Positions 4,003 through 54,389 of a stretch of DNA of 64,000 bases are shown one piece after another. This DNA comes from Ignavibacteriales bacterium. GTDB lineage: Bacteria > Bacteroidota > Ignavibacteria > Ignavibacteriales > Ignavibacteriaceae. A model generated the notes under the pieces. That model made no database searches. It had not been told where the DNA came from and was given only the letters and a program-made list of their open reading frames with translations. The stretch covers positions 1,405,448 to 1,469,447 of the forward strand of contig CP054182.1 of the NCBI GenBank assembly GCA_015709675.1. The letters run 5' to 3'. Numbering within the stretch: position 1 is the first letter of the stretch; every line of letters begins with the position of its first letter. The position numbers were made by a program, and so were the translations under genes.

Positions 4003-7000
4003 TTATTTTGTTTCCGAAGCAAAAGGGGCTGAAAGCATGACACTGGTTCCGCCGGAAGGCTCAGAAACAAATTGAGCACTGCCGTTAATCTCGCTCATTC
4101 TTTTCTTTATATTCTGCAATCCGTTCCCGCCAAGTGAGGCATTGTTTCCGCTGCCAGAAAAACCTTTGCCGTCATCTTGAATAGTAAGGGAGATGGCCTC
4201 TGAGGAGATTTTAGCAGTAAGCGTGATTCTGGTGCAGGAGGAATGCCGCACCGCGTTAGAAACAGCTTCTTTGGCTGCAAGATATATATTGCGCCGTATT
4301 TCTTCACTGACTGAACCGCTCCCGCTGCCGGAAGAAATAAACTCAGTCCTGATACCGGCTGAACTGCACATCTCATGGGCAATCAGTCTGATACGCAAAA
4401 GAAGATTATCAACCGAATCATAATTCGGAGAAACAGACCAGACGATATCACTCATGGACTGCTCTGCCTTGTTCAGAATGGAAGTTGATTTCTCCAGAAA
4501 CTGCAGAGCAGCATCTTTATTCTCCGGAAGTATCTGTTTTGCTGACTGGAGATAGAGCCCTGCGCTGCTTACGGTTGAGGCAAGATCATCATGCAGATCG
4601 CGTGCTATGCGGTCGCGGGTTTTATTTCTTTCTTCAAGGATCAGTTTTTCCTTTTCAAGTCCGGCGATGCGTTCCTTATATTTTTTCCGTATATAATAGC
4701 GGGCGGAAAGAATAATGGCCGAAGCAACCAGCAGGGTGATGACTGCGTAAAACCACCCGGTGCGCCAGAAAGGGGGGACTATCACAATCCGGGCAAGTTC
4801 CTGTTCTTCGCTCCAGAGGCCGTCTTCATTGGCTGCCTTTGCGGCAAATATATACTCTCCGGGCTCAACGGAGGAAAAGTCAATATTCCGCCGCGTGCCG
4901 GTATATATCCACTCATCATGCAGCCCTTTCAGCCGGTACGCATACTGATTTGAACCGGGGTGGTCATAGAGCAGGGCAGCCAGTTCAAAAGAAAAGAAGT
5001 TTTGATTATATTTCAGGCGGATCTCAGGTGCACCCAGCATGTCGGGGCGTGACTTATTAAAGAGGAGGAAATCGGTAATGGCAATACGGGGAAGATGCGG
5101 ATTCCCTTTGATTTCCTCAGGCCGGAAAGATATGATGCCCCTCATGCCACCGAAGAATAACCTGCCGTCGGGTGATTTGTAATAAGAATTCTGATTAAAC
5201 TCTGTGATATCCGGAAGGTCATTCCTGCCAAAGACTGAAATGGTATAATCACTGCCGTTTATTCTGCTGAGTCCTGCGTTGGTTGAGACCCACAGATCAC
5301 CACTGTTATCTTCAAGAATGCCATAAACGGTATTATTGCTGAGACCTTCTTTCGTCGTAAATCGCCTGAAACTCTTCTCATCAGCAGAAAGAAGATTAAG
5401 CCCGCCTCCCATGGTTGCAGCCCATAGCCGTCCTTTGCGGTCCCGGTGAATTGCCATAACCTTGTTCCAGGAGAGTGAGGTTGGGTTATCTGCCTGAGCG
5501 GAAAATCTTTTGTAAGACATATCCCTGAGTGAAATCTTCAGCAGTCCTTCGCCGTTGGTACCTGCCCACAGCGTATCACCTTCGGCAAGGAGCGAAAGTA
5601 TGTATGATTTCGACTCAGAAACAATACCGCTTTTGAACGTATGTACTAAAAAGGAACCGTCTTTCGGGGAGAATTCGAAAAGTCCGCCTGCGCTTCCTGC
5701 CCAAAAACGGCCATCCTCCGAAGCGGTAACTGCATATATACGATTCTTATAAGAGAAGGGTTCGCCCCCGGATGAAAAAATATATTCTTTGAATCTTCCT
5801 GTCCGGGTATCATACCGGTTCAGCCCGCGGCGTGTTCCTACCCAGATGCCTCCATCAGGAGCTTTGTAAATACAGAAGGCAGCATGACCTGCATAACCGG
5901 AGTTTTGCGGTGTAAACTGGTACGATGTTTCATTAGCTGGATTATACATATATAGTCCGTTTGTGGTTCCCGTGAGCATCCTGCCGTCTTCAAGCGAAAG
6001 CATGCTTATGGGATATGAATCACCGAAGAGATCACGGTAGTTTTTAGCGGCCGGAAGGAATGAAAATGTTTTCCTGACAGGGTTTACCTTATACAGGCCT
6101 GATATCGTACCGATCCAAAGTACATCTGAATCATCAGTGAACACTGCATAGACGGGTTCACTTACTTTACCAGACGGTGAAGCATATGAAAAATTTTTGA
6201 ATGAAACTTTCCCGGTTAAGGATCTGAAATTCTCACAAATAAAAAGACCCTCAGAAGTTCCTGCCCACAGATTCCCATTTTTATCCTCATGCAGGGTGTT
6301 AAGGATGGCGGAAGTCCCTTTCGCAGTAGTAAATACAGCAAGCGTTCGAATGGTGCGGTTCCGGTAGTCATACTCTTTCAGTTCCCCCTTCTGTGTTGTA
6401 AGAAAAATTCTTTTATCCGATGTTACAAAGAGAGAATAGTAATCAAACCCTGTGGTAATTACATATTTTTCAAGAAGTGTATCTATTATATATATTTTAT
6501 TCCTGTCTGCCATGACCAGCGACGGTCTTACGGAGGCCTCAGGGAAATCAACCTTCTTCGCGGCATAAGAGGTGATTTGTAAAGTGACAGGGTCAATTCT
6601 TCTTATAGTATCATTCAGCCCGGTCCATAAATAACCGGATGTATCCTGTTTCGGTGTATGAATTGCAGCGGAGAGAAGAGGTGAACCGTCGGGATATTTC
6701 AGAAGCCGGAATCTTCTTGTCCTTTTGTCATATACATTAATACGGCCGTCAGGGAAAAGCACCCAGATGCGGTCATCCTGGTCAGTACCCAGAGAAAGGA
6801 TATTGCTGTTGGCAATCGAACTGCTGTCGGTAAAATCATGGTGAAACGTGAGGAAATTATATCCGTCAAAGCGGTTGAGACCGTCCCAGGTGCCTGCCCA
6901 GAGGAAACCCTGCTTATCCTGAACAATTGAGCGGACATTAAGCTGCGAAAGTCCTTCAGCGGCTCCGTAATGAGTATAACGTGATTGCGGGAAGGAATCT

Positions 7001-7068: not shown

Positions 7069-7222
7069 AGTCACGCAGAGGAATTTTTTGAATAATGCAC
7101 CCGTATCAAATCTGAAGATACACTCCGCGGCGTGGATGTACGGGAACAAAATTGCAAGCACCCTGGCAAGATATTGACCGCCGGAAGTTTTACGCGAAGT
7201 CACGCAGAGTTTTCCGGTGATG
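7069..7222. repeat. Copy of the dispersed palindromic intergenic repeat
   Basis: Contains acgcaaagtcacgcagag at about 7063-7080 and again gcgaagtcacgcagag near 7195-7210, plus a decayed copy (tacactccgcggcgtgga, 7120-7137) of the palindrome at 1771-1788, each followed by tgtacggg. The order of elements matches the gap at 1714-1975, so both are copies of one intergenic family. It fills the space between the kinase and the GNAT gene. Confidence 0.55.
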
Positions 7223-7699
7223 TTACTGATTTAGCAGAGTGTCAAACTTGTCTTCAGTCAGGCGGAAAACAGTCCAGCCATCCATGGGTACCGCACCAAG
7301 TGATTTATAAAAATCAATTGCGGGCGTATTCCAGTTCAGCACTGACCACTCAACCCGGCCGCAGTTTCGCTCTTTTGCTTTCTTTACAATCTCAAGCAGA
7401 AGTTTTTTACCAATACCTTTTCCGCGAAGATGGGGCTTTACAAAAAGATCTTCAAGATAGATCCCCTGCCTGCCGATAAAGGTGGAAAAGTTATGGAAGT
7501 AAATTGCATACCCTGCCGGCTCATTATCCTCGTATGCGAGCAATACTTCAATGGTGGACTTTTCTCTGAATAGAGTCTCTCTGAGCGTATGCTCATCAGC
7601 AATCACTTCGTGAGAAAGTTTTTCATATTCAGCGATCAGTTTAATGAAATCGAGAATGAGTGGTATATCAGTTTCTTCGGCTTTCCGTATAACGAGCAT
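7223..7699 (-). CDS. GNAT-family N-acetyltransferase (SSAT-like)
   Basis: A 158-residue acetyl-CoA-dependent acetyltransferase. The acetyl-CoA pyrophosphate-binding loop RGKGIG is at residues 92-97, preceded by the IYLEDLFVKP strand and followed by WNTPAIDFYKSLGA. These segments, with the YEKLSHEV stretch near residue 25, match the diamine/spermidine acetyltransferase (SSAT/thialysine) branch. The small cationic amine substrate is inferred. It is the last gene of a three-gene operon with 11 bp after the MOSC gene. Its downstream side runs into repeat DNA. Confidence 0.85.
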   Translation of the reverse strand: MLVIRKAEETDIPLILDFIKLIAEYEKLSHEVIADEHTLRETLFREKSTIEVLLAYEDNEPAGYAIYFHNFSTFIGRQGIYLEDLFVKPHLRGKGIGKKLLLEIVKKAKERNCGRVEWSVLNWNTPAIDFYKSLGAVPMDGWTVFRLTEDKFDTLLNQ

Positions 7700-8511: not shown

Positions 8512-9858
8512 TTACTTCCTGATAATCGCGAGCAGTTCTTCGGTTTTCTGCTTCATCAGGGCTTCGTCACCGCGGCTTTCAACATTGAGCCGGAGTATCG
8601 GTTCGGTATTGCTCATGCGGAGGTTAAAGCGCCAGTCGGGGAAGTCCACGCTTACGCCGTCGGTATAATCATTGACGCCGCCGGTATATATTGAAGTGAT
8701 TTCCTTAATCTTGCCTGCCGGGTCTCCGATCACAGAGTTGATTTCACCTGAACACGGGTAGTTTTTAATCATTTCACCAACAAGTTCGCCAAGGCCTTTT
8801 TTCTCTTCTGACATTAACTGCATTACCAGAAGGAAGGGGATAACACCGCTGTCTGAGTAAGCGTTATCGCGGAAGTAGTGGTGCGCTGACATTTCACCGC
8901 CGTAGATAGCGTTTACTTCTCGCATCTTTTCCTTAATGAACGCGTGTCCGCTCTTTGACTGCACGGTTTCGCCTTTGGCGGCTTTAACCACTTCAACGGT
9001 GTTCCAGGTGAGGCGCGGGTCGTGGATAATTTTTTCACCTGGATTGGTTTTCAGAATTGATTTCGCGAGCAAACCTACTATATAATAGCCTTCAATAAAA
9101 TTGCCCTGCTCATCAAAGAAGAAACAGCGGTCATAGTCACCGTCCCATGCCACACCGAGATCTGCCTTGTGTTCTTTAATTGCGTTGATGGTAGGTATGC
9201 GGTTTTCTTCATACATCGGATTGGGAACACCGTTCGGGAAACTGGAATCAGGATTATTAAACAGCTTGATCATCTTTACCGGAAGCACGCTTTCAAGGCG
9301 GTCAAGGATCGGACCCACGCATCCGTTGCCTGCATTCACCACTACTTTAAGGGGGGTAACTTTTTTCACATCATAGAAGCGGTTCAGGTTGCTCAGGAAG
9401 TCATCGGTGATATCCTTTTGTATATATCCCCCTTTTTTGGCAGCCGGGGCGGGAAGGTTCCCTGTTACGATCATCTTTTCCATTTCGCTCAGCCCTGAGT
9501 CATAACTGACCGGAACGGAATTCTTTTTTACGAACTTCATGCCGTTATACTCAGGCGGGTTGTGGCTCGCGGTAATCATGATGCCGCCATCCAGGCCAAG
9601 GTGGCTGGTGCCGAAGTAAATCATCTCTGTGCCGCAGAGTCCTATATCGGTAACATCGGCACCGCTTGCGCGAAGGCCTTCAGAGAGTGCTTCGGATATC
9701 GCTTCGGAGGAAGAGCGCACATCATGCCCGATAACCACCGAGCGCGCGCCGGTCAGCTGCACAAATGCCTGGCCGATCTTGTAAGCCAGCTCAGGATTCA
9801 GTTCACCGGGCACCTTGCCGCGGATATCATAAGCCTTAAAACAGGGAATTTTTTCCAT
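8512..9858 (-). CDS. manB: Phosphomannomutase / phosphoglucomutase
   Basis: An alpha-D-phosphohexomutase of 448 residues, close to the 456 of E. coli CpsG/ManB. YDIRG is at 10-14. The active-site loop TASHNP carries phospho-Ser98, followed by EYNGMK. The metal loop DGDYDR is at 239-244 and the sugar-binding GGEMSAHHYF loop follows. The C-terminal phosphate-binding SNTEPILRLNVE motif is present. It interconverts mannose-6-phosphate and mannose-1-phosphate for GDP-mannose and surface-glycan synthesis; it may also act on glucose phosphates. It is the first gene of the PMM-MOSC-GNAT operon. The symbol follows the CpsG/ManB resemblance and is tentative. Confidence 0.9.
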   Translation of the reverse strand: MEKIPCFKAYDIRGKVPGELNPELAYKIGQAFVQLTGARSVVIGHDVRSSSEAISEALSEGLRASGADVTDIGLCGTEMIYFGTSHLGLDGGIMITASHNPPEYNGMKFVKKNSVPVSYDSGLSEMEKMIVTGNLPAPAAKKGGYIQKDITDDFLSNLNRFYDVKKVTPLKVVVNAGNGCVGPILDRLESVLPVKMIKLFNNPDSSFPNGVPNPMYEENRIPTINAIKEHKADLGVAWDGDYDRCFFFDEQGNFIEGYYIVGLLAKSILKTNPGEKIIHDPRLTWNTVEVVKAAKGETVQSKSGHAFIKEKMREVNAIYGGEMSAHHYFRDNAYSDSGVIPFLLVMQLMSEEKKGLGELVGEMIKNYPCSGEINSVIGDPAGKIKEITSIYTGGVNDYTDGVSVDFPDWRFNLRMSNTEPILRLNVESRGDEALMKQKTEELLAIIRK

Positions 9859-9996: not shown

Positions 9997-10078
9997 CCAG
10001 AAAGGACAACAAGGACAGGGAGGACAACAAGGACTGGAAAGGACAACAAGGACTGGAAGGACTGAAAGGACAACAAGG
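9997..10078 (+). repeat. 9-bp minisatellite, upstream array (AAGGACnnn)
   Basis: A short array of AAGGACAAC / AAGGACTGG units with slips, in the forward direction. It is the same family and orientation as the long array at 19084-19443. It sits between phosphomannomutase and the GTPase block, so the block is bounded by direct copies of the repeat. Reading frames across it are an artefact of a repeat that lacks stop codons. Confidence 0.8.
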
Positions 10079-10214
10079 CACTGATGATTAAAAACCCGGA
10101 GCTATTTTATTTGATGTGTTAACAGTCAGTTACCGAGGAATTCTCGGTTACCAAATTGAAGTATGTATCAGAGAGTTTTCAGGGAATGAAAGTCACTAAT
10201 TTTAAGAAAAATGC

Positions 10215-10243
10215 TTGCCATTTTACGTGAATCTCTTATTTTG
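10215..10243 (+). promoter_or_regulatory. Candidate Bacteroidota-type promoter for the GTPase block
   Basis: TTG at 10215-10217, a 19-bp spacer and TATTTTG at 10237-10243 resemble the TTTG / TAnnTTTG consensus of the Bacteroidota primary sigma factor. Transcription would start near 10250 and give a leader of about 370 nt before the first GTPase gene. This is pattern matching only; the region is AT-rich and chance matches are possible. Confidence 0.35.
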
Positions 10244-10373
10244 TCAGGAAAGGATTTGATATCTTTTTTGGACGAAGTTTTTAACAAAGGAAAATTTTAA
10301 TAGCTGGGCTGAAAACCAGAGGAGTAACCACATGATTTTTACAGAATGGGTATTACTTACCCAAATCAAACCT

Positions 10374-10417
10374 CCCAATGCATTTCATATGGTTTTGTAA
10401 AACATGAAACCATTGGG
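10374..10417 (+). other. 44-nt near-perfect hairpin in the leader of the GTPase block
   Basis: CCCAATG at 10374-10380 pairs with CATTGGG at 10411-10417. Inside it, tttcat pairs with atgaaa, and gtttt pairs with aaaac around a two-base centre. The whole 44 nt folds on itself with only small internal mismatches. No T-run follows, so it is not a standard terminator. It could be a DNA operator or an RNA leader structure about 200 bp before the first gene. The rest of 10079-10620 holds a small palindrome (accgaggaattctcggt, about 10131-10147) and no convincing gene. Confidence 0.55.
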
Positions 10418-10620
10418 AAAGGGCGGAATCCCCAAAAACCTCAAATATTTCATTTTTTCTCTTCCGAATTCAGTTTCGATAAATAACTCGCAAATTGAGA
10501 ATCCGGTTCAAAAAATCCTCTCATCTGACCAATCTAATAAATTTTCTCCAGACAAATGCTGCCCGGGTGGCAATTCTCTAATTCTTAATCAAATGTAACA
10601 ACAATTAAAAAGGCACGGCT

Positions 10621-12249
10621 ATGAGTATCGAGAATAAAAAAGCAAACTTTAAGAGTAAATCTGAAAAATTAAAAAGTTACTACGAAAAATATTCTCTGGG
10701 GTTAAATGATATTCAACAACTGATTGCCGGAATAAGTGATTTCTCAGTTGTAACGCCGGTAATCGGAGGGTTTTCATCAGGGAAAAGTTCGCTGATAAAT
10801 GCTGTTCTTAGTTTAAACCTGATGCCGGTTGAAATAACTCCTGAAACCGCTATCCCTACTGAGATAAGGTACTCACCAAACGAGCAGTGCCAACGGTTAA
10901 CTGAAGGCAAATGGTTAGCTGCGCAAGTCAAAGAAATCAGAGAAAATAAATTTCTTTACTCTGATACAAAGCTTGTTAAAGCATTTCTGAATGTGCCGTT
11001 TTTGAAGGAGATACCTTCGGTAACTCTGGTTGATATGCCCGGACTTGATTCCGGTATTGAGGCACATAACAGAGCGATTGATGATTATCTGCTGAATAGT
11101 CTGGCGTATATAATAACAGTTGATTCTGAACAGGGGCTGACCGAAAGTGTTATTCTTTTCCTGAAAGAGTTGAAGCTGCTGAGTGTGCCAATCCTGGTTG
11201 TACTGACAAAAACAGACAAGCGTTCGAAGTCTGATGTTGATGCGATGTTTGAGGATGTTAAGAATAAGATGGAGCAATACACCGGTGTTGGTAAATTTCA
11301 AATAACAACGGCTTCAGCAAGGAAGCAGGATGTTGAGCAGGTCAGAAAATTCTTAACTGAAATTCAGAATCAGGCGGATTCAATTTTCGAGAATGCAGTA
11401 TCGCAGAAGCTTAATTCAGCAATTAGTGTCATTGAAAAATATCTTACTACCAGAGTCAATAAAGACGATTTTACGATTGAAGAAATTGCTGAAAAAGAAA
11501 AACTTCTTAAAAAGCAAATTGAAGAGCTGGAGATAAAGATAGACAAGGAGAAAGAAACACTCAGTTCCGATATTGAAAAATGTATCACGCTTGCAGAGGG
11601 GAAAATTAAAATGCGGCTTGAGGGGTCAACCGCCTCAATAGTTTCTGATTTATTGGCTAACCGTGACCCCAAAACGCAGATTAATTCGCTTGTGCGCGTT
11701 TCAATCCTGGAAAGCATTCAGACAGAAATTACCCCAAGAATTCAGCGCTTTTTTAACACGGTATCTGATTTGTCGGGTATTGAGTTAGAAATTAATTCTC
11801 ATCTGGATTCTGACCCGATAAAAGGAAAAGTTAATGATCTGATGAAAGACTCAATAAAAAAGGTCACCCCGCTTATCCTGGCAGGTATAGGGTTTGCATT
11901 TGCAGGACCAATCGGGGCACTTGTCGCGGGTGTATTGTCGGTAATAACGGACATTTTCTTTGAAAAGAAAAAGCAGGATGATGCAAGAAGAACTGCTGAG
12001 GAAAAAGTAAGAAATGAAATAGTGCCGCAAGTATCCTCACAGGCAATAGCATCGTTCAGAACATCCATTGCGGCGCATCTTTCGGAAATTGTGGATAAAC
12101 TCCACGAGTCAATAACTAAGGACAAAGAAATGAAAGAAAAGGCATTGGATGATTTAAGAGCGCAAAAAAATAAAGCAATTGAAGAGCAGAATTCAGTGCT
12201 TGCTGAGCTGCAGGAAGACTTAAGCCAGATTCAGGAACTAAAAAATTAG
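10621..12249 (+). CDS. Dynamin-like GTPase 1 with hydrophobic membrane segment
   Basis: A 542-residue large GTPase. G1 (GGFSSGKSS) is at residues 49-57, the switch-I threonines at about 73-80, G3 (DMPG) at 138-141 and G4 (TKTD) at 196-199. After the G domain come long helical heptad-rich stretches (about 265-340), a hydrophobic segment at about 415-444 (VTPLILAGIGFAFAGPIGAL) able to enter a membrane, and a C-terminal coiled coil (about 455-540). This order fits the bacterial dynamin-like family, in which GTP hydrolysis drives membrane tubulation or fusion. It is the first gene of a six-gene block, with 6 bp to the next start. The function here is inferred from the fold and the partners. Confidence 0.85.
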   Translation: MSIENKKANFKSKSEKLKSYYEKYSLGLNDIQQLIAGISDFSVVTPVIGGFSSGKSSLINAVLSLNLMPVEITPETAIPTEIRYSPNEQCQRLTEGKWLAAQVKEIRENKFLYSDTKLVKAFLNVPFLKEIPSVTLVDMPGLDSGIEAHNRAIDDYLLNSLAYIITVDSEQGLTESVILFLKELKLLSVPILVVLTKTDKRSKSDVDAMFEDVKNKMEQYTGVGKFQITTASARKQDVEQVRKFLTEIQNQADSIFENAVSQKLNSAISVIEKYLTTRVNKDDFTIEEIAEKEKLLKKQIEELEIKIDKEKETLSSDIEKCITLAEGKIKMRLEGSTASIVSDLLANRDPKTQINSLVRVSILESIQTEITPRIQRFFNTVSDLSGIELEINSHLDSDPIKGKVNDLMKDSIKKVTPLILAGIGFAFAGPIGALVAGVLSVITDIFFEKKKQDDARRTAEEKVRNEIVPQVSSQAIASFRTSIAAHLSEIVDKLHESITKDKEMKEKALDDLRAQKNKAIEEQNSVLAELQEDLSQIQELKN

Positions 12250-12255
12250 TGCAAT

Positions 12256-13821
12256 ATGGATTCTATTAATTATACAACCGCTTTTAACTTAGTCAGTAAA
12301 ATTGTTCAGAACGGCGAGGGGGAAAGCTTTTTGCAGGATATTGCCGGTCTGAATAAGATTATTAATACCGACCTTCCGGAGGCAATGAAGGACTACGCCC
12401 CCTCAAATTTTGCAGAAATTTACTCGGATTTCAAATATACTTTTGAAAAATTTACGGACTTTATTCTTTTTGACAAACTTATTGGCAAAAACACTGTTAC
12501 TCTTGGGGGTGGTTTCAGCACAGGAAAGTCCAGTTTTATAAATGCACTTCTTAAAAACCGGATGTTACCTTCAGAGATAGATCCTTCAACATCAGTGCCG
12601 ACGTATGTGATTCATGGGGCAAAGGAGAGTGCGATAGGAATAAACGTTTTTAATAAAAAGGTAGATCTGGCAATTGAAGAGTTGAAAATCATTTCACATG
12701 GCTTTACTTCAGAATACAATGTGAAGTTCGGGCATTTACTGGAGACCATATTTGTTGAAACTCCGGAGCAGCCATTTAAGTCAATTTCATTTCTTGATAC
12801 GCCCGGCTACTCTAAACCTGAGTCAGAAAATTACTCAAAGAAAACCGATGAAAATATTGCCAGAACACAGCTTAATTCAGCCAATTTTATTTTATGGTTC
12901 GTAAGTGCGGAAGAAGGTACAATCACCGATGAGGATATTAAATTCCTGCAATCCTTGAACAGCGGTATTCCTTTTGCGGTTATTGTAAATAAATCTGACA
13001 AAAGAGCAGAGTCAGATGTTTCTGACATTGTCGGGCTGGTAAAACAAAATCTTACTAATAGGGGAATATTTCCTCTTGATGTGATACCGTTTTCCTGCAG
13101 ATACCCTGAGAAGTTTGGGAAGGAACAGATTCAGAAACTTCTTGCAAACTGGAATAAACAGGAATACGCCTCAACCTTTGCCAGGGATTTTAAGATTTTA
13201 TTTGTAGAATGTATCGAATATTTCGAGGAACAAATAAGGAATGAATCCAGGCGACTTAACTGGATTAATACGGGAATGACGTTCTCTGATATTCCAGAGG
13301 TGAATGAAGCATTTACAAATCTAAGCAATGAGATAAAAATTTTCTTGAAAAACTACAGGGATAAAGAAAAAAATCTAAAAGAAATTAAAGATCTCTTTTT
13401 TAAGGAAATCAAATCGGTTGCCGATAAATATGGTATTGAGATGCCTGAACCATCAGAACTGGATTTACTTTCCTTCAAATCCCTTGATATCTTCAATTTA
13501 GTGCGAAAGAATAAAGACAAGAGAGGAATAAAAACCGGAGATTATTTCCATATCCTGCAGAACCAATTGACAGAATTACAAAAAAACGAAGAAATTTTAG
13601 TGTGGGGTCAAAAGTATTCAAAGATAATTGAAGATACAATCACTGAACAACTGGTGATAGAAGACGGTGCTTTGAATATGCATGTATCTTCTTCGGGAAG
13701 TATAAGGAGCAATCTTGGAGGTAATTTTCTGCCAGTAGAAGAAAATAACAAATTATTCACACAAACAATCAGGAAAAATTTAAGAAATACGATTAATCGT
13801 CAAAATCAAAAGGAGTATTAA
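12256..13821 (+). CDS. Dynamin-like GTPase 2
   Basis: A 521-residue GTPase with all nucleotide motifs: G1 GGFSTGKSS at 85-93, switch-I threonine region STSVPTY at 111-117, G3 DTPG at 181-184 and G4 NKSD at 245-248. An 80-residue helical extension precedes the G domain, as in bacterial dynamin-like proteins where the first bundle is split around the G domain. The C-terminal half is helical and has no obvious hydrophobic insertion segment, unlike GTPase 1. Bacterial dynamins often work as adjacent pairs in which only one subunit contacts the membrane, so GTPases 1 and 2 may be hetero-partners. The spacing is 6 bp before and 3 bp after, with an AAGGAG site ahead of the next gene. Confidence 0.85.
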   Translation: MDSINYTTAFNLVSKIVQNGEGESFLQDIAGLNKIINTDLPEAMKDYAPSNFAEIYSDFKYTFEKFTDFILFDKLIGKNTVTLGGGFSTGKSSFINALLKNRMLPSEIDPSTSVPTYVIHGAKESAIGINVFNKKVDLAIEELKIISHGFTSEYNVKFGHLLETIFVETPEQPFKSISFLDTPGYSKPESENYSKKTDENIARTQLNSANFILWFVSAEEGTITDEDIKFLQSLNSGIPFAVIVNKSDKRAESDVSDIVGLVKQNLTNRGIFPLDVIPFSCRYPEKFGKEQIQKLLANWNKQEYASTFARDFKILFVECIEYFEEQIRNESRRLNWINTGMTFSDIPEVNEAFTNLSNEIKIFLKNYRDKEKNLKEIKDLFFKEIKSVADKYGIEMPEPSELDLLSFKSLDIFNLVRKNKDKRGIKTGDYFHILQNQLTELQKNEEILVWGQKYSKIIEDTITEQLVIEDGALNMHVSSSGSIRSNLGGNFLPVEENNKLFTQTIRKNLRNTINRQNQKEY

Positions 13822-13824
13822 GAA

Positions 13825-15012
13825 ATGGCTGAATCTCGAATAAAAATTGATAATATTGATAAGGCAAGAGCATATTTCAAAGAAAAGAAAAATGAAGTCT
13901 ATAAACTTACCAGGCATCCGTTAACAAAAGAGAGCGAATATCTTAAGGAATTATATGTGGCATTGTTATGCAGTGTTGCTGCATACGATGGTAAGTTGGC
14001 AGAGGGTGAAACCAATTATATTAAAAGAGTGATGTTAGGAATGGAGCTCAACTCTGAATTTGCAAAAGTTGTTAAAATGGGACTTGAAATAGATCAGAAA
14101 ATGATTGATGAATTTATAAAGGCCTTCAGCGGTAACGACTATAGCCATTGCTTTTTAGCTGATTCATTAGTAGTGGCGGCAAGTGATGGCGTGCTGCATG
14201 ATAAGGAAATTGAACTTGTAGCCGAAATATCGGAGCTGTTGCTGATTGTTAAAGAAGATGTTGATAAAATCTCAAAGCTCATTTCGGTAGTTTTCTTAAG
14301 AAAAATTGAGCTGATAAACAAATTCCTCGAATCAAATAAATTCGATTTGAATTTTGATTACCTGATTAAGAGTTTTGTGCCAAACTTCGTAAATCCGGAA
14401 ACTTTTGAAACAATCACTGGAGATGTACTATATGAAAATGATAAAATATTCTTAAAGAAACACATTAGATTCGACAATGCAAAAATTTCCATTAAGGATA
14501 ATGTTGCATTAAAATTTGAAGGACTTGAAACAGTAGAATTTATAAATTGTGAGATCGAAGGAGGCGAAAATAACCCAATTTTTGTTACTAATACTGGTAA
14601 TGTTAAAATTCAGCAGTCAAAATTCTCTAATTTTAGCACAAAAGTGATGATTTTTGATACCATAACTTCTTTAATCGTTAAAGATTCGCATTTTGAAAAT
14701 TGCGGTTATAAATTTTATAGTAGTTGGAAAAATATTCATAAGTCTGGAGGAATTTTTTTATTAACAAATACCACTTTCACAATGGAGAATTGTGTGTTTC
14801 ATGAATGTTACATAAGGAACCATGAAAGCGATGATGAGCAATATACTCCAAGTGGCTTTGTTGCTTGTATTGTAAGATCTTCTGGAACAGTTCGGGGTAA
14901 TCTGTATAAAGATTGTTATGCAAAATCAAATAACTACAGCAGGAATGGTTCGGCCTTGTTTTTTAATAACGATGGAAGTAAAATTTATGAATCTACAAAT
15001 ATGTTTCAATAA
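13825..15012 (+). CDS. TerB-like domain fused to a right-handed beta-helix
   Basis: A 395-residue two-part protein. Residues of about 35-165 look like a TerB domain: two helical halves each carry an acidic DG loop (AAYDGKLAEGE at 52-62, AASDGVLHDKEIE at 118-130), the internally duplicated TerB pattern. Residues of about 195-395 have short repeating strands (VEFINCEIEG, VKIQQSKFSNF, LIVKDSHFENCGY, FTMENCVFHECY, TVRGNLYKDCY) that read as coils of a parallel beta-helix. TerB domains occur at the inner membrane and in defence-associated loci, and the beta-helix could bind a surface or polymer. It begins 3 bp after GTPase 2, with a good AAGGAG site, so it is translated with it. The base composition is strongly AT (16 G/C in 60 bases from 14461). 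Confidence 0.7.
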   Translation: MAESRIKIDNIDKARAYFKEKKNEVYKLTRHPLTKESEYLKELYVALLCSVAAYDGKLAEGETNYIKRVMLGMELNSEFAKVVKMGLEIDQKMIDEFIKAFSGNDYSHCFLADSLVVAASDGVLHDKEIELVAEISELLLIVKEDVDKISKLISVVFLRKIELINKFLESNKFDLNFDYLIKSFVPNFVNPETFETITGDVLYENDKIFLKKHIRFDNAKISIKDNVALKFEGLETVEFINCEIEGGENNPIFVTNTGNVKIQQSKFSNFSTKVMIFDTITSLIVKDSHFENCGYKFYSSWKNIHKSGGIFLLTNTTFTMENCVFHECYIRNHESDDEQYTPSGFVACIVRSSGTVRGNLYKDCYAKSNNYSRNGSALFFNNDGSKIYESTNMFQ

Positions 15013-15025
15013 AAGGAGAAGAGTT

Positions 15026-15358
15026 ATGAAATGGATAGTCCGAGGCACGATTAAAAAAGTAAATATTGTTTGCTGTGCAAATAGTTCGGTTGTTAAGTTT
15101 GAAATGAACTACAAAGATATTTACTTGAATGAAAATATTCTGGCTGTAAATAAGGATATTTCAGAAAATGATAATGCAAAGTTAATAGCGAAAGGAGAAT
15201 ACCTATTCGAAGCAACGGTAGATGCGGGATTTGTGCTCTCTGTTTTTGAGAATCGTATGATAGTGTCATTAATTTTTGAAACAGATAATATTAAAGATAT
15301 CTTTAAGGAGGGCACAGCCATTCGGATTGATTCAATTGAGTTAGATCTTGAAAAATAA
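15026..15358 (+). CDS. Small hypothetical protein of the GTPase block
   Basis: I set the start at ATG 15026, which follows an AGGAGAAGAG site at about 15014-15023; the frame is open further upstream but that part overlaps the previous gene. The product has 110 residues, no signal peptide and no membrane segment. It is predicted to be beta-rich, with alternating hydrophobic strands (IVRGTIKKVNIVCCANSSVV, FVLSVFENRMIVSLIFE). I do not recognise a family. Its last 11 bp overlap the next gene, so the two are translationally coupled, which argues it is a genuine partner of the SIR2-like protein. Confidence 0.6.
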   Translation: MKWIVRGTIKKVNIVCCANSSVVKFEMNYKDIYLNENILAVNKDISENDNAKLIAKGEYLFEATVDAGFVLSVFENRMIVSLIFETDNIKDIFKEGTAIRIDSIELDLEK

Positions 15359-16925
15359 GTCACTCATATTTATTGGAGCTGGCGCAACAGCTCAAATAAT
15401 GGGTGCAACAGAAGAGCTAAATCGAATTATTTATTCGCTTTTCAGCAGTAAGACAGAAGATTTTTACGAGAATTCTTTTGAAGATGATCATAACAAGGGA
15501 TTCAATACTTTATTAAAATTGTTGGATCCTGCTAAAATGGATTCCGAGATTGAGCGGAAAGCATCTGAATATGCTAGTATCTACGATTTAAATCCTGAAG
15601 AGCTTAAGTTTAGCCTGCGTGGTTTATCTTCTATCTATGACTATGAATGTCTGTCTCATTTAGTAAGTATAACTGCCAATCAAACAGAAAAGAAGGTTGA
15701 TTTAATGCTGCTCTACTCAACCATTGATCTCTTAATTAAAGATCAGGGAGGCCTACAAGCAGAAGCAAAATTCTTTGATTTGACCAGAATTAGGAAAGCG
15801 CGCAGTTTACTGAATGTAGTAATTCATACAATTTTGATGTGCCAGACAGCTAATGCCATAAAATCTCCGCAAAAAACTATACCGTACCTAAGTTTTGTTA
15901 ATGAGTTGGTTGAATACACAAGATTAGAAAGTATTGAATTAGGAAAAAAGCACTCTGGTGATTTTACTGATCCTGATTTTGTAAATTTTGGATATTCTGT
16001 TGTTTCATTCAATTGGGAACCTTTAATATTGGGAATGATATTTAAGGCGCATAAAGACTTTAATCATAGTGGAATGACGCCTTATCTTGGGAATAATTGT
16101 TTGCGGCTCCGTTTGTTTAATGATTTTGGTCTGACAATAGGAAGTTTGAGAAAAGATAATAAAAACGATGTGGGGAAAGTCTGGTATCAGGGACATGAAT
16201 CAATCGCTATCCGTGTTAATGATTCAGAATATCCCTCAAGATTAATGAGGGTCGGCAAATTTCTTTTTCCCCATGGCAGTCTTGCTTTTCGAATGTGCCC
16301 GGTTTGCCGAAAGACAAATTTTGTGGTTAGGGGGATCGACAATTTGCTGAATTACTTCGGACCTGGCATTCTCCCTGAATTCAACGATTTTTATTCTCAG
16401 GGACTGCTTACAGAAGCTGAATCCAAATCTTTTAAGAGGGGGCATTTTGACGCCCTTGAGTGCTATTGCTGCAAAAATATTATGAGAATGGTAGATACTC
16501 CGCTAATAATGCAAACTGCCTTCAAAGATAAATATCCGCCAATTCTTGAAGAATCGCTCTATGAATTAACTGTGCAGCTTATAAAAGCCAATCATTTACT
16601 TTTTATTGGATACAAATGTTCAGAAGATGATGTGGTTTATCGTTCAAAAATTCTGGCTGCAATTGCAAATTCAAAAGATAAAAAAGTAAGTGTGGTTTTA
16701 TTTGATAGGGCTCTACAAGACCAGAACTGGTTTGAACGTGAAGAGTTAAAGCAAAAGTTAGAATCCCCTCTAGTAAATTCAGAAACAAAGAAGTTGATTC
16801 AAAATTTCCTCGATCTATTTCAATCTGAGGATATTAAAATTAGAATATCGTTCAAGGGTTTTCCGCAAGTAGTTACGGAAGGAAGCTCCCCTCAAAGAGG
16901 GCTAAAGCAATTATTAGAATACTAA
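15348..16925 (+). CDS. SIR2-like NAD-binding protein with zinc ribbon
   Basis: A 525-residue protein read from a TTG at 15348 that overlaps the previous gene by 11 bp. The start of the fold shows IFIGAGATA (GAGAT at 10-14), the SIR2 nucleotide motif. SFNWEP with Asn222 corresponds to the family's FNxD region. FPHGS (His309) corresponds to the LHGS catalytic segment. Two cysteine pairs, CPVC (317-320) and CYCC (372-375), frame a zinc ribbon as in sirtuins. LLFIGYKCSEDD near the C-terminus matches the late SIR2 motif. In bacterial defence loci, SIR2 proteins deplete NAD+ in infected cells; a deacylase role is less likely in this setting. The family call rests on motifs only. Confidence 0.7.
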   Translation: MKNKSLIFIGAGATAQIMGATEELNRIIYSLFSSKTEDFYENSFEDDHNKGFNTLLKLLDPAKMDSEIERKASEYASIYDLNPEELKFSLRGLSSIYDYECLSHLVSITANQTEKKVDLMLLYSTIDLLIKDQGGLQAEAKFFDLTRIRKARSLLNVVIHTILMCQTANAIKSPQKTIPYLSFVNELVEYTRLESIELGKKHSGDFTDPDFVNFGYSVVSFNWEPLILGMIFKAHKDFNHSGMTPYLGNNCLRLRLFNDFGLTIGSLRKDNKNDVGKVWYQGHESIAIRVNDSEYPSRLMRVGKFLFPHGSLAFRMCPVCRKTNFVVRGIDNLLNYFGPGILPEFNDFYSQGLLTEAESKSFKRGHFDALECYCCKNIMRMVDTPLIMQTAFKDKYPPILEESLYELTVQLIKANHLLFIGYKCSEDDVVYRSKILAAIANSKDKKVSVVLFDRALQDQNWFEREELKQKLESPLVNSETKKLIQNFLDLFQSEDIKIRISFKGFPQVVTEGSSPQRGLKQLLEY

Positions 16926-16940
16926 GGAGAAATTACAAAA

Positions 16941-19070
16941 ATGTTTACCAAAACTCAGGCAATTGAAAAGGTATTTGATGAATATGCATCAAAGATTGAT
17001 AAGATAATAAATTCGCTTAAGAAGCATGAAGATTCTTCACAGTCGTTTGTTAAAATTAAGGATCATTTTGCAAATAAGACAAATGATTTTTACCGTGAGG
17101 ACAGGAAACTTCGTATTGCCGTTATAGGGCAGGTAAAGGCAGGTAAATCAACATTCCTGAACACCATGCTTTTTGACGGACAGGATGTATTGCCAAGGGC
17201 TGCTACACCGAAAACCGCGAATCTTACGGTTATTAAATACGGAGATACCAACTTTCTGGAAATTGATTTTTATTCCAAAAGTGAATGGGATGAATTAGTT
17301 AAACTCGCCAGTTCTGCCGCAGAGATTGAAACTGATGAAATAAAGGTTGCAAAAGAAATTGTAGGGATGGTACAGAAACAAGGCATCAGTGTTGAGGAAT
17401 ATCTTGGCAAAAATGACTACAGGATTGAGTTTTCGACTTATGATGAACTACTTGGAAGATTAAACGATTTTGCCGGCGCAGACGGCAAGATAACGCCTCT
17501 GGTAAAATCGCTCCAGATGACCATTAATAATGAGAAGATTAAGAATATTGAAATAGTGGATACTCCAGGAATGAATGATCCGATAGTTTCCCGCACTGAT
17601 AAAACAAGGCAGTTTATCGAATACTGTGATGTGGTTTTCTTTCTGAGCAGATGCCCAAAATTTTTAGATAAAACCGATATGGAGCTTTTAACCAGACAAC
17701 TGCCTCAAAAAGGGGTCAGTAAAATGTATCTGATTGGCAGTCAGTATGATTCGTCAATAAATGATTCTATTTGGGAAAAAGGCAGTTATCAAAAAGCAGA
17801 TGCGGATAACAAAAAGCGGCTTATGGAAAGGGCAAATTCCGAATTCGAAAAGTTAATTGAAAAAATGAAGGAGAGAAATGTTAAAGATTCAATTCTTGAG
17901 GTGATCGCTAATTGCAAAAAACCGATACTGATTTCCTCAATGGCTCATAACATGGCTAAAAAGGAGAGGGCATATTATAATGAGGAGGAGATGGTTGTGT
18001 TCGCAGGCATTTCAGAATATGAAAAAAAATTAAACAAAGAAATGCTGCATACACTGGGTAATTTCAAGACTGTGAACAGTGTTTTTTCAGAAATTGTCGA
18101 AAATAAGGACAAGACGTTAGAAGCAAAAGCCGTGCATTTTATCCCCACTTCAGTAGCAGAAGTTAACGGTGAATTGGATGCATTAAAATCTAAGGTTGAA
18201 AAGCGAATAACAATTCTTTCCGCTAATGATATCGCCAGATTAAAAGAGAGTAAAAAACACACGCTCTCACTCAAGCATAAAATTCAGGCCGATATAGAGA
18301 ATATATTTGGCGGAGTCGCGTTAAATTTAGAGAAATTGAAAACCGAGCTTTTTAGTGACATTCGCAAGACCATGAGAACTTATTCCAGAATTACAGAAAG
18401 AACAGGCACCGAAGAAAGGACAGGATATAATGAGGTATCCGCTTCCTCGTTCTGGAGACCTTGGACTTGGGGGACCACTAAAATGGTGGCATATAAATAT
18501 ACCGCTACCTATACCTATCTGGATGTAAGTGATGCGATTGAGAACATCAGGAATTATGCGAATGACACAAGTACAAGTATTGAGGAGAAATTAAATGAAT
18601 CGCTTAATTTAAGTAAAACTAAAAGAGAATTGCTCACTGTGGTTGTCCAAAATTTTGATACAACCGATGATGATTTTGACCCTGCTTATTTCCGTCTGCT
18701 GGTTGAAAAGACTCTGAATTCGGTCGAGATACCAGTGATAAAAATTGATATTAAGAATGAAATCAAGAATTTAACATCTTCGTTTAGCGGAGAAATACGT
18801 GATGGCTCAGAAAAAAGTTCTCTTCAGTTAGCTATGAATGATGCTTTGCACAGTATTTTTGAGTTTATTGAGGGGAACCTGGTTAAGGAGTTCGTTAAAA
18901 TTAAAAGCAGCATACAAAATTTGAAAGATTCTCTGGCTGATCAGTTGCTGAAGGATATTACGGATGAATTGGATAACATTGAACAGTTGTTCAAGAATCG
19001 TGAAAAAGAGCTAAAGAATAATGAAGAATTGCTGAAAGTGATTGCTGATTGTAAAAAGCTGGTTGCTTGA
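16941..19070 (+). CDS. Dynamin-like GTPase 3 with tryptophan-rich paddle loop
   Basis: A 709-residue dynamin-like GTPase. G1 GQVKAGKST is at 63-71, the switch-I region PRAATPKTA at 85-93 and G3 DTPG at 207-210. The expected G4 NKxD is replaced by SQYD (267-270), so guanine specificity may be altered or use other contacts. Long helical stretches follow. A loop near residue 505 reads SASSFWRPWTWGTTK and sits between helices where dynamin-like proteins place a membrane-inserting paddle tip. It starts 15 bp after the SIR2-like gene with an AAGGAG site, and it ends the block. An N-terminal 55-residue helical region is split from the rest of the bundle by the G domain, as in the family. Confidence 0.85.
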   Translation: MFTKTQAIEKVFDEYASKIDKIINSLKKHEDSSQSFVKIKDHFANKTNDFYREDRKLRIAVIGQVKAGKSTFLNTMLFDGQDVLPRAATPKTANLTVIKYGDTNFLEIDFYSKSEWDELVKLASSAAEIETDEIKVAKEIVGMVQKQGISVEEYLGKNDYRIEFSTYDELLGRLNDFAGADGKITPLVKSLQMTINNEKIKNIEIVDTPGMNDPIVSRTDKTRQFIEYCDVVFFLSRCPKFLDKTDMELLTRQLPQKGVSKMYLIGSQYDSSINDSIWEKGSYQKADADNKKRLMERANSEFEKLIEKMKERNVKDSILEVIANCKKPILISSMAHNMAKKERAYYNEEEMVVFAGISEYEKKLNKEMLHTLGNFKTVNSVFSEIVENKDKTLEAKAVHFIPTSVAEVNGELDALKSKVEKRITILSANDIARLKESKKHTLSLKHKIQADIENIFGGVALNLEKLKTELFSDIRKTMRTYSRITERTGTEERTGYNEVSASSFWRPWTWGTTKMVAYKYTATYTYLDVSDAIENIRNYANDTSTSIEEKLNESLNLSKTKRELLTVVVQNFDTTDDDFDPAYFRLLVEKTLNSVEIPVIKIDIKNEIKNLTSSFSGEIRDGSEKSSLQLAMNDALHSIFEFIEGNLVKEFVKIKSSIQNLKDSLADQLLKDITDELDNIEQLFKNREKELKNNEELLKVIADCKKLVA

Positions 19071-19083
19071 GAGAATTGGTTTT

Positions 19084-19443
19084 AAGGACAAGAAGGACTA
19101 AAAAGACAAGAGGGACAGGAAGGACAACAAGGACAACAAGGACTGGAAGGACAACAAGGACAACAAGGACGAGAAGGACAGTAAGGATATGAAGGACGGA
19201 AAGGACAAGAAGGACAGGAAGGAAAGCAAGGACTGGAATGACAGCAAGGACTGGAAGGACAGCAAGGACAGAAAGGACAACAAGGACTGGAAGGACAACA
19301 AGGACAGAAAGGACAACAAGGACTGGAAGGATAACAAGGACTGGAAGGACAACGAGGATGAGAAGGACAGCGAGGATGAGAAGGACAGCAAGGACTGGAA
19401 GGACAACAAGGACAAGAAGGAGAACAAGGACAAGAACTGGAAG
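19084..19443 (+). repeat. 9-bp minisatellite array of about 40 units (AAGGACnnn)
   Basis: About 40 consecutive 9-base units with invariant AAGGAC (variants GAGGAT, AAGGAT, AAGGAA) followed by AAC, TGG, AGC, AGA, AAG or GAG, in unbroken register. Because 9 is a multiple of 3, several frames stay open and would encode KDx triplets. I do not call them genes: the forward frame meets a TAA in the second unit and the reverse frames are open only because the repeat has no stops. The array lies between the GTPase block and the four-helix-bundle gene. Its complement recurs at 20107-20140. Confidence 0.9.
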
Positions 19444-19517: not shown

Positions 19518-20099
19518 ATGGAAGACAACAATAAAAACCCGAAGGGTTTTATTCCTAAACATGGCGGGTACCGGAAACTGAAAAGCTATCAGAAAGCCGA
19601 GATTATTTATGACGGGACAATTTATTTTACCAAACGGTTCTTTAAAAGCTATGACCGCACAGTAGATCAAATGGTGCAGGCAGCCAGAAGCGGTAAACAG
19701 AATATTGCGGAAGCTAGCATAGCCTCTGCTACTTCCAAAGAAACTGAGATTAAGCTTACCAATGTTGCAAGAGCTTCTTTAGAAGAACTGAGAATTGATT
19801 ATGAAGATTTTATAAGAAAAAATAATTATCAGATTTGGGATATAGACCACGAACTGGTTGCCCGCCTCAGAGAATTAAACAGAATTCCCGATGCTGCTTA
19901 TGAGACTTTCCGTAAGGCAATTGAAAATGAAAATCCTGAAATTTGTGCCAATACTATGATTGGTTTGATAAGAGTGGCAAGCTTCCTCCTGAATAATCAA
20001 ATTAAATCTTTAGAGGAATCTTTCATTAAAGAAGGCGGTCTTCGTGAAAGAATGACCAAGGTCAGAATAGATCACCGAAACAACAACCAGGGAAATTAG
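19518..20099 (+). CDS. Four-helix-bundle protein (S23 / IVS-like family)
   Basis: A 193-residue, mostly helical protein. The core (about 20-170) matches the 23S rRNA intervening-sequence (S23) four-helix bundle: GGYRKLKSYQKAEIIYDGT, then a basic helix (TKRFFKSYDRTVDQMVQAARSGKQNIAEAS) and LEELRIDYEDFIRK. Relatives are encoded inside intervening sequences of bacterial 23S rRNA and beside diversity-generating retroelements; they bind nucleic acid as pentamers. No rRNA or reverse transcriptase is nearby. The gene sits between the forward minisatellite and an inverted copy of it, so its transcript could fold with the gene in the loop, as in a true IVS. Confidence 0.85.
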   Translation: MEDNNKNPKGFIPKHGGYRKLKSYQKAEIIYDGTIYFTKRFFKSYDRTVDQMVQAARSGKQNIAEASIASATSKETEIKLTNVARASLEELRIDYEDFIRKNNYQIWDIDHELVARLRELNRIPDAAYETFRKAIENENPEICANTMIGLIRVASFLLNNQIKSLEESFIKEGGLRERMTKVRIDHRNNNQGN

Positions 20100-53766: not shown

Positions 53767-54093
53767 ATGATAAATCTGTTTAATTCAAAAGATTATCACT
53801 GGTCTCTTTTTATGGGGCATCTGGTTATAGAAAAATTGCTTAAGGCGCTTTATGTAAAGGTCAAACGGGCACATGCTCCTTTGACACACGATCTTAAGCG
53901 AATTGCACAGATTATCCCCTTAGAATTGACCGATGAGTATTCTGACTGGTTGGATATTATTTCATCGTTTAATATAAACGCCAGGTATGATTCGATTAAA
54001 AGAGACTTTTACAAGAGATGCACACCTGAGTATTCGGCTGAGTGGATCGAAAGAATAAAACTGCTGAAAGAATGGATAAAGAAAGAGCTTTAG
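53767..54093 (+). CDS. HEPN-domain protein (toxin of HEPN-MNT pair), 5' end interrupted
   Basis: A 108-residue helical HEPN protein from ATG 53767. Its RNase-type motif is Arg34-x6-His41 in RAHAPLTHD, preceded by HWSLFMGHLVIEKLLKALYVK. The family normally has about 20 more residues at the N-terminus. In the same frame, ATG 53692 begins M-E-D-Q, then a TAG stop at 53704-53706, then LDVTKLIEFWTDSAGSYFLT, which looks like that missing helix. Either a nonsense mutation truncates the protein, or it starts at 53767. The MNT antitoxin gene overlaps its end by 22 bp. HEPN partners of this type cleave RNA and are silenced by nucleotidylation. Confidence 0.8.
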   Translation: MINLFNSKDYHWSLFMGHLVIEKLLKALYVKVKRAHAPLTHDLKRIAQIIPLELTDEYSDWLDIISSFNINARYDSIKRDFYKRCTPEYSAEWIERIKLLKEWIKKEL

Positions 54094-54389
54094 CTGTTGT
54101 TAAAGATTACTTACATGTAGTCATGACGAAGTACCCTGTAAAAAGGGCTTTGTTGTTTGGTTCGTACGCAGCCGGTAACCCGCATCCGGATAGTGATATA
54201 GATTTAGCAATCATACTTGATGATGCAGAAAATCTTTTTGATACTCAGGGGCAAATGATGATCCTCCGGAAAAATGAGGCGGTATATATTGAACCGCATC
54301 CGTTCCGTGAATCTGATTTTGTAATGGATGATCCGTTTGCGGCAGAAATAATTTGTACCGGAGTTGAACTCGAAGTGCCTGAGCGGTAG
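54072..54389 (+). CDS. MNT-type nucleotidyltransferase (antitoxin)
   Basis: A 105-residue nucleotidyltransferase from the ATG at 54072, which overlaps the HEPN gene by 22 bp; an ATG at 54042 is also in frame but lies deeper inside the HEPN gene. The signature GS at 30-31 and the DxD at 42-44 (LFGSYAAGNPHPDSDIDLAI) bind ATP and metal. In known HEPN-MNT modules this enzyme transfers AMP to a tyrosine near the HEPN catalytic site and so neutralises it. A third acidic residue is expected downstream and may be Glu78 (IEPHPF). Confidence 0.87.
   Translation: MDKERALAVVKDYLHVVMTKYPVKRALLFGSYAAGNPHPDSDIDLAIILDDAENLFDTQGQMMILRKNEAVYIEPHPFRESDFVMDDPFAAEIICTGVELEVPER

Follow-up and report, generated by a model that had tools for sequence, protein, structure and literature searches.

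A three-dynamin/TerB operon carrying a SIR2-like module in an Ignavibacteriales genome: a laterally acquired candidate system against invaders

Gene content of the block

We analysed a window of 64,000 nucleotides from an Ignavibacteriales bacterium (contig CP054182.1), in whose coordinates positions are given, and within it the block at 10621–19070, which encodes three dynamin-like GTPases (G1, G2 and G3), a fusion of a TerB domain with a right-handed beta-helix, a small protein and a SIR2-like protein (Table 1). All six genes are intact and lie on the plus strand with spacings of 6, 3, 13, −11 and 15 bp, and the G+C content of the block is 36.1%, against 45.0% elsewhere in the window. An earlier interpretation made from the DNA letters (the sequence-only reading) had described six co-directional AT-rich genes with short gaps or an overlap; their positions are correct, and so are the counts that it quoted, 16 G/C in 60 bases at 14461 and 33 in 60 at 9301. 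Its assignment of three dynamin-like GTPases and a TerB/beta-helix fusion is likewise borne out by the Pfam matches. The small gene has its own ATG, preceded by a AGGAGAAG ribosome site, and the open reading frame (ORF) of the SIR2-like protein begins 11 bp inside its end. We place the start of the SIR2-like protein at this TTG because the next in-frame methionine falls past the GAGAT motif, which would be lost. A Pfam scan of the small protein gave nothing convincing, and no known family could be assigned to it.

Table 1. Genes of the block and the repeat arrays at its borders, in window coordinates.
Feature	Position	Strand	Evidence and remarks
G1, dynamin-like GTPase, 542 aa	10621-12249	+	Pfam Dynamin_N E 9.7e-19; PDB; hydropathy; orthologues
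G2, third dynamin-like GTPase, 521 aa	12256-13821	+	Pfam Dynamin_N E 1.6e-17
TerB domain (adaptor) with right-handed beta-helix (proposed recognition domain), 395 aa	13825-15012	+	Pfam TerB 1e-9, Beta_helix 3e-7
Small protein, 110 aa, candidate partner of the SIR2-like protein	15026-15358	+	Overlaps SIR2-like gene
SIR2-like protein (probable), 525 aa, TTG start	15348-16925	+	GxGA, N222, H309, zinc-type cysteines C317/C320/C372/C375
G3, dynamin-like GTPase, 709 aa	16941-19070	+	Pfam Dynamin_N E 2.8e-22; PDB; relatives; tree
Left piece of tandem array, 9/18/27-bp, AAGGACAACAAGGACTGG type; left insert border	10000-10083		Piece of the 9-bp array
Right, larger piece of the same array; right insert border	19084-19436		Piece of the 9-bp array

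A conserved operon of three dynamins and TerB

When about 85,000 species genomes were scanned with a G3 profile, 321 relatives came back; the best 80 of these were analysed together with six plasmid loci (86 loci). G1, G2 and G3 are found on one strand within 9 kb in 50 of the 86, although many contigs end early. The order seen in the window, G1-G2-TerB-...-G3, is also present in Bacillota, Pseudomonadota and Synergistota; in Campylobacterota and on plasmids of E. coli, P. aeruginosa and Calditerrivibrio the three GTPases are arranged in other ways. On plasmid pPGC22 of Photobacterium ganghwense (L003:7264-14037) the arrangement G1-G2-TerB-x-G3 sits within a conjugation cluster, flanked by traU-type and traN genes. 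Because the gene order recurs across so many genomes, the three dynamins and TerB represent one co-inherited system; the sequence-only reading had proposed such a search, and the core G1-G2-TerB-G3 turns out to be conserved rather than scattered as unrelated genes. A possible extra module of the system is a HerA/DUF87-type ATPase of 1,020–1,090 residues, encoded directly after G3 at L024:12144-15248 and at some 20 further Lachnospiraceae-type loci; one or two more genes usually accompany it.

What occupies the slot between G2 and G3 in these operons? The TerB domain in the window scores 39.1 bits against a Pfam cut-off of 24.4, and a profile built from residues 1–200 of the TerB proteins also recognises most other proteins of the slot, including some that have no Pfam TerB match (mostly E 1e-14 to 1e-44), while those outside the profile are mostly truncated ORFs or neighbours admitted by the contiguity rule. 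There are often one to three TerB-type proteins per locus. Their C-termini vary, with Pfam Beta_helix in 19 of 53 and, in single or few cases each, Lcl_C, pentapeptide, FGE-sulfatase/lectin, LRR, HEAT or TerD domains. The slot is a TerB-adaptor cassette, in which a near-constant N-terminal TerB domain is joined to differing C-terminal domains.

Diversity-generating retroelements diversify ligand-binding domains. A complete element of this kind lies inside the three-dynamin/TerB operon of a Rhodoferax sp. metagenome (NZ_JAQTXM010000040.1; L059:2-8994), where the variable repeat (7180–7304) lies in the FGE/lectin C-terminus of a TerB protein and is accompanied by a small gene of accessory type, a reverse transcriptase and the template repeat (8821–8945). 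The two repeats differ at 17 positions, 16 of them template adenines. A second variable copy (4213–4324) is found in a second FGE-type ORF of the same locus, and G2 there ends in a C-terminal lectin copy. Since the retroelement targets the C-terminal domains of the slot in this relative, they are probably recognition domains, a role that the beta-helix may fill in the TerB protein of the window. FGE/lectin targets of retroelements have been proposed as invasion sensors (PMC10907252).

A parallel for such an arrangement may be drawn with the ternary conflict systems with retroelement-diversified sensors (PMC7159879, PMC10907252), where an NTPase switch is similarly combined with an adaptor that is itself constant but joined to FGE/lectin domains that vary and are in some cases hypermutated. 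Their switches, however, are MoxR, STAND or DO-GTPases; neither 'dynamin' nor 'TerB' was found in PMC10907252, and 'TerB' was not found in PMC7159879. A TerB-like protein also occurs in a multigene operon in the anti-phage system Shango, which in contrast has a helicase and an ATPase and no dynamins (PMC10250203). Pfam shows neither a helicase nor any other ATPase gene in the block, which is therefore not Shango. The three-dynamin/TerB operon may overlap with a TerB system named 'Dionysus' in a review (PMC12926258).

The GTPases and their relatives

The P-loop GxxxxGKS and the DxPG motif are kept in all three GTPases, and the G4 motif is canonical in G1 (TKTD) and G2 (NKSD) and reads SQYD in G3. 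Hydropathy analysis revealed a strongly hydrophobic trunk tip in G1 (residues 418–436; LILAGIGFAFAGPIGALVA from residue 418), which in the window is confined to this protein, G2 being without it; among relatives such a tip is present in 91% of G1 and 4% of G2, and G3 always lacks it. In some relatives G2 carries extra C-terminal domains by fusion. The best relatives in the PDB are Cj-DLP1/2 (G3 to 5owv chain A, E 2.2e-17; G1 to 5owv chain C, E 8.2e-11), which in Campylobacter jejuni form a 2:2 tetramer that tethers membranes (PMC6104087). The two Cj-DLP genes are adjacent; G1 and G3 are neighbours in several of our relatives, and in some Clostridia the G1–G3 pair occurs alone, with neither TerB nor G2. 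By analogy, G1 and G3 would form a hetero-oligomeric pair of the Cj-DLP kind, with G2 connecting this pair to the sensor, although the Campylobacter operon as described is a two-gene pair lacking both G2 and TerB (PMC6104087).

The core also resembles the dynamin defence system LeoABC/Eleos in being a co-directional, laterally spreading operon of dynamin-like GTPases, and G1 and G3 match the PADLOC models LeoA (E 7e-13, 46.5 bits) and LeoBC (E 6.5e-11, 40 bits), in partial, low-scoring alignments far below family level. LeoABC comprises two dynamins, one of them split across two genes (PMC4159319), whereas here there are three full-length GTPases and TerB adaptors, joined in the window by SIR2. 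The three complete GTPases, present in the window and in 50 of 86 related loci, together with the weak partial matches, place the core outside Eleos/LeoABC as defined; it may nonetheless work in a similar way. Neither PADLOC 2023 nor the open literature that we searched contains a named three-dynamin/TerB/SIR2 system, so that the statement of the sequence-only reading that no named system has this exact composition stands.

Lateral origin of the block

At a threshold of E 1e-15 the G3 profile (alignment A1) matches the host genome and none of 394 other genomes sampled evenly from the host phylum. The window's G3 sits on a long branch within Bacillota in the tree of this protein, close to loci from Clostridium sp. 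CX1, Ureibacillus and Metasolibacillus. The acquired stretch spans approximately 10085–19083 and is bounded at each end by a piece of the same 9-bp (AAGGACAAC-type) tandem array. In a congener (one genome of the same genus) the sequence upstream of the same phosphomannomutase-like gene enters the array (L103:7629-7915) without the block, and sequence from the block interior was found nowhere in this assembly, which is 88% complete. An empty site in the congener is therefore likely but not closed, because the contig ends inside the array, the next one beginning at about window position 19834. Absence from the other sampled genomes of the phylum, the position in the tree, the low G+C content and the lack of the block in the congener all support the horizontal acquisition that had been suggested from the sequence.

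Integrase-driven insertion was considered and set aside: the block contains no integrase, and the array borders are better explained by repeat-mediated recombination. In this genus the 9-bp array may serve as an entry point for foreign DNA. More array-like matches are present on other contigs of the congener. Just right of the array, a four-helix-bundle protein with a TIGR04258 suffix domain is encoded at 19518–20099, outside the insert since the congener has it too. Searches of viral contigs with TerB and G3, and of phages with G3, gave no match, and therefore no sign of a phage-borne system.

The SIR2-like protein and its small neighbour

The 525-residue protein is probably SIR2-like, on the evidence of motifs in three homologues, one PADLOC match and a profile comparison, and this is the weakest assignment in the block. 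Its relatives are rare: searches found none in the 394 further genomes sampled from the host phylum, nor in plasmids, genome contigs or viral contigs, and in 299 genomes from the phylum to which Photobacterium carnosum belongs the matches were short and partial only. Among 348 genomes from the phylum that includes Clostridium sp. CX1, two carry homologues, with 33–35% identity, and the first of the two was arrived at by way of its dynamin locus. Invariant in the three sequences are GxGA, SxNW(D/E)P (containing N222), FPHG (H309), the four zinc-type cysteines and GY...DD.

Could the protein instead belong to a diverged Rossmann or zinc type, with no more than superficial SIR2 motifs and no cleavage of nicotinamide adenine dinucleotide (NAD)? 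The Pfam SIR2_2 match (E 0.032) lies under the curated cut-off, the PDB returned no match by sequence and the structure models are poor, all of which would fit such a protein. Against it, GxGA, the asparagine of SxNW(D/E)P and the histidine of FPHG are retained at about 33% identity, and one homologue, located in a defence island, matches PADLOC SIR2 at 7.5e-6. Moreover, hhalign comparison of the three homologues with 13 SIR2_2-type proteins gave 31% probability, over the GxGA segment only, versus less than 1% for unrelated controls, and the top eight Foldseek matches of the better structure model in the PDB are Sir2 enzymes, albeit without significance. We regard a protein of non-SIR2 type as improbable, and NAD cleavage as the likely activity. 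The claim of the sequence-only reading that this gene encodes a SIR2-like effector accordingly keeps positive evidence from motifs, PADLOC and profile, which is weak and comes with no confident structure model. The protein shares GxGA, N, HG and GYS-type motifs with SIR2-like anti-phage effectors (PADLOC SIR2, ThsA, SIR2/HerA) and, through its homologue, the PADLOC SIR2 match, but it differs from them in an inserted four-cysteine zinc ribbon, the pairing with a small protein, the location in a dynamin operon and the lack of a significant match to any solved SIR2 structure.

The SIR2-like gene is absent from all 80 related loci, the best 80 of 321 (phmmer, E up to 10), and we have rejected it as part of the conserved core. 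As its homologues are found elsewhere, the six-gene 'system' is a local assembly, and the earlier proposal of one system made up of six genes fails in this respect: only the dynamins and TerB are co-inherited. The homologue in Clostridium sp. CX1 (L123) is solitary, the dynamin/TerB operon of this genome being on another contig. The other homologue (L126) is preceded by an overlapping 135-residue ORF, the same arrangement as in the window, and the pair is surrounded by AbiEi, AbiH, a PLD protein and a UG5-nitrilase reverse transcriptase in a defence island (L126:4723-16464), so this small-ORF/SIR2-like pair may be an undescribed defence module. Homology between the two small proteins was rejected (BLAST E 0.31; 240 of 1000 shuffles score equally high).

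This distribution, with homologues outside dynamin operons, either solitary or following a small overlapping ORF, and with none in the 80 relatives of the operon, is what would be expected if the transcript carried two independent defence cargoes, namely a complete dynamin/TerB operon and an autonomous small protein/SIR2 pair that acts in defence or in a toxin-antitoxin-like manner. Such independence is the most serious of the alternatives that we consider and has a fair chance of being right, though a smaller one than an acquired system with an added effector. The insertion kept the operon intact, with junctions of 13 and 15 bp and ribosome sites, and the module lies exactly where relatives have their additional adaptors. 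Also, of the two genomes in which a SIR2 homologue occurs, one carries a dynamin operon as well, even if on a different contig.

Proposed mechanism and its weighing

We give about an even chance to the block being a laterally acquired sensor-dynamin system directed against invaders, to which an NAD-depleting effector module has been added. We infer the following sequence of events. The C-terminal domain of the TerB adaptor, here the beta-helix, would recognise a signal of invasion or of envelope damage, which would then be relayed via the TerB domain to the GTPases. G1, with its hydrophobic tip, and G3 would build a membrane-tethering hetero-oligomer like that of Cj-DLP1/2, while G2 would act as the third GTPase, coupled to the sensor. 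Assembly of the GTPases at the membrane could lead to sealing or remodelling, or else provide a signalling platform. The SIR2-like zinc-ribbon protein, placed in the adaptor slot, would upon activation cleave NAD, so that the infected cell stops; the small protein may serve this enzyme as a partner or restrain it.

How strongly does genomic context argue for defence? WYL regulators are common in defence islands, and among the genes nearest to the relatives' operons a WYL domain is found in 13 of 91, others encoding DpdF, AbiEii, pPIWI-RE, PsyrT and an RT-associated nuclease, counts that stand without a control set. A Bacillus subtilis dynamin has been reported to resist phage (PMC8844932). The same GTPases could, however, serve envelope maintenance, membrane repair or vesicle formation, in the manner of LeoABC, DynA or Cj-DLP, and answer membrane stress rather than invaders. 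The resemblance of G1/G3 to a tethering pair with a proposed role in membrane repair, the influence of LeoABC on vesicle release (PMC4159319) and the clostridial G1–G3 pairs without TerB or G2 are in line with this view. The patchy, plasmid-borne and lateral distribution, the WYL and defence neighbours and the hypermutated adaptor domains are on the other hand a poor fit to housekeeping, and we consider a role of this kind improbable, though somewhat less so than a non-SIR2 identity of the 525-residue protein.

Several points weigh against the sensor-dynamin system with an added effector. Phage defence by the three-dynamin/TerB family is a function that we infer from genomic context, including the neighbour counts that lack a control, and the retroelement was found in a single metagenome locus. 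WYL and defence genes flank many of the relatives' copies, and to this extent the proximity to defence islands that the sequence-only reading had asked about is present, but the block's own neighbourhood in the window is not a defence island. The SIR2 module is missing from the 80 loci, so that its putative link to the GTPases is one of operon position. The SIR2 fold itself is putative, the single-sequence and three-sequence models having a pLDDT (predicted local distance difference test score) of 34 and 41. Elsewhere in the window, two short overlapping genes at 53767–54386 resemble, by a reading of the sequence, a HEPN and nucleotidyltransferase toxin-antitoxin pair.

Implications

Tentatively, and with somewhat less confidence than we place in the reading of the block itself, we suggest that the operon exemplifies a new class of conflict system, in which a three-dynamin membrane machine has as its switch interchangeable TerB-linked recognition proteins, in some bacteria hypermutated by a diversity-generating retroelement, and can be fitted with lethal enzymes such as an NAD-consuming SIR2. 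The guanylate-binding dynamins of animals, which build immune signalling platforms, offer a loose comparison. Bacterial dynamins have been tied to phage resistance and to vesicle release, and TerB adaptors with swappable, sometimes hypermutated recognition domains, whose genes lie between those of the GTPases, are a candidate for their trigger. If this is true, the block would provide an example of an enzymatic effector joined to a membrane machine, and the questions of what bacterial dynamins sense and what TerB domains connect would become directly testable.

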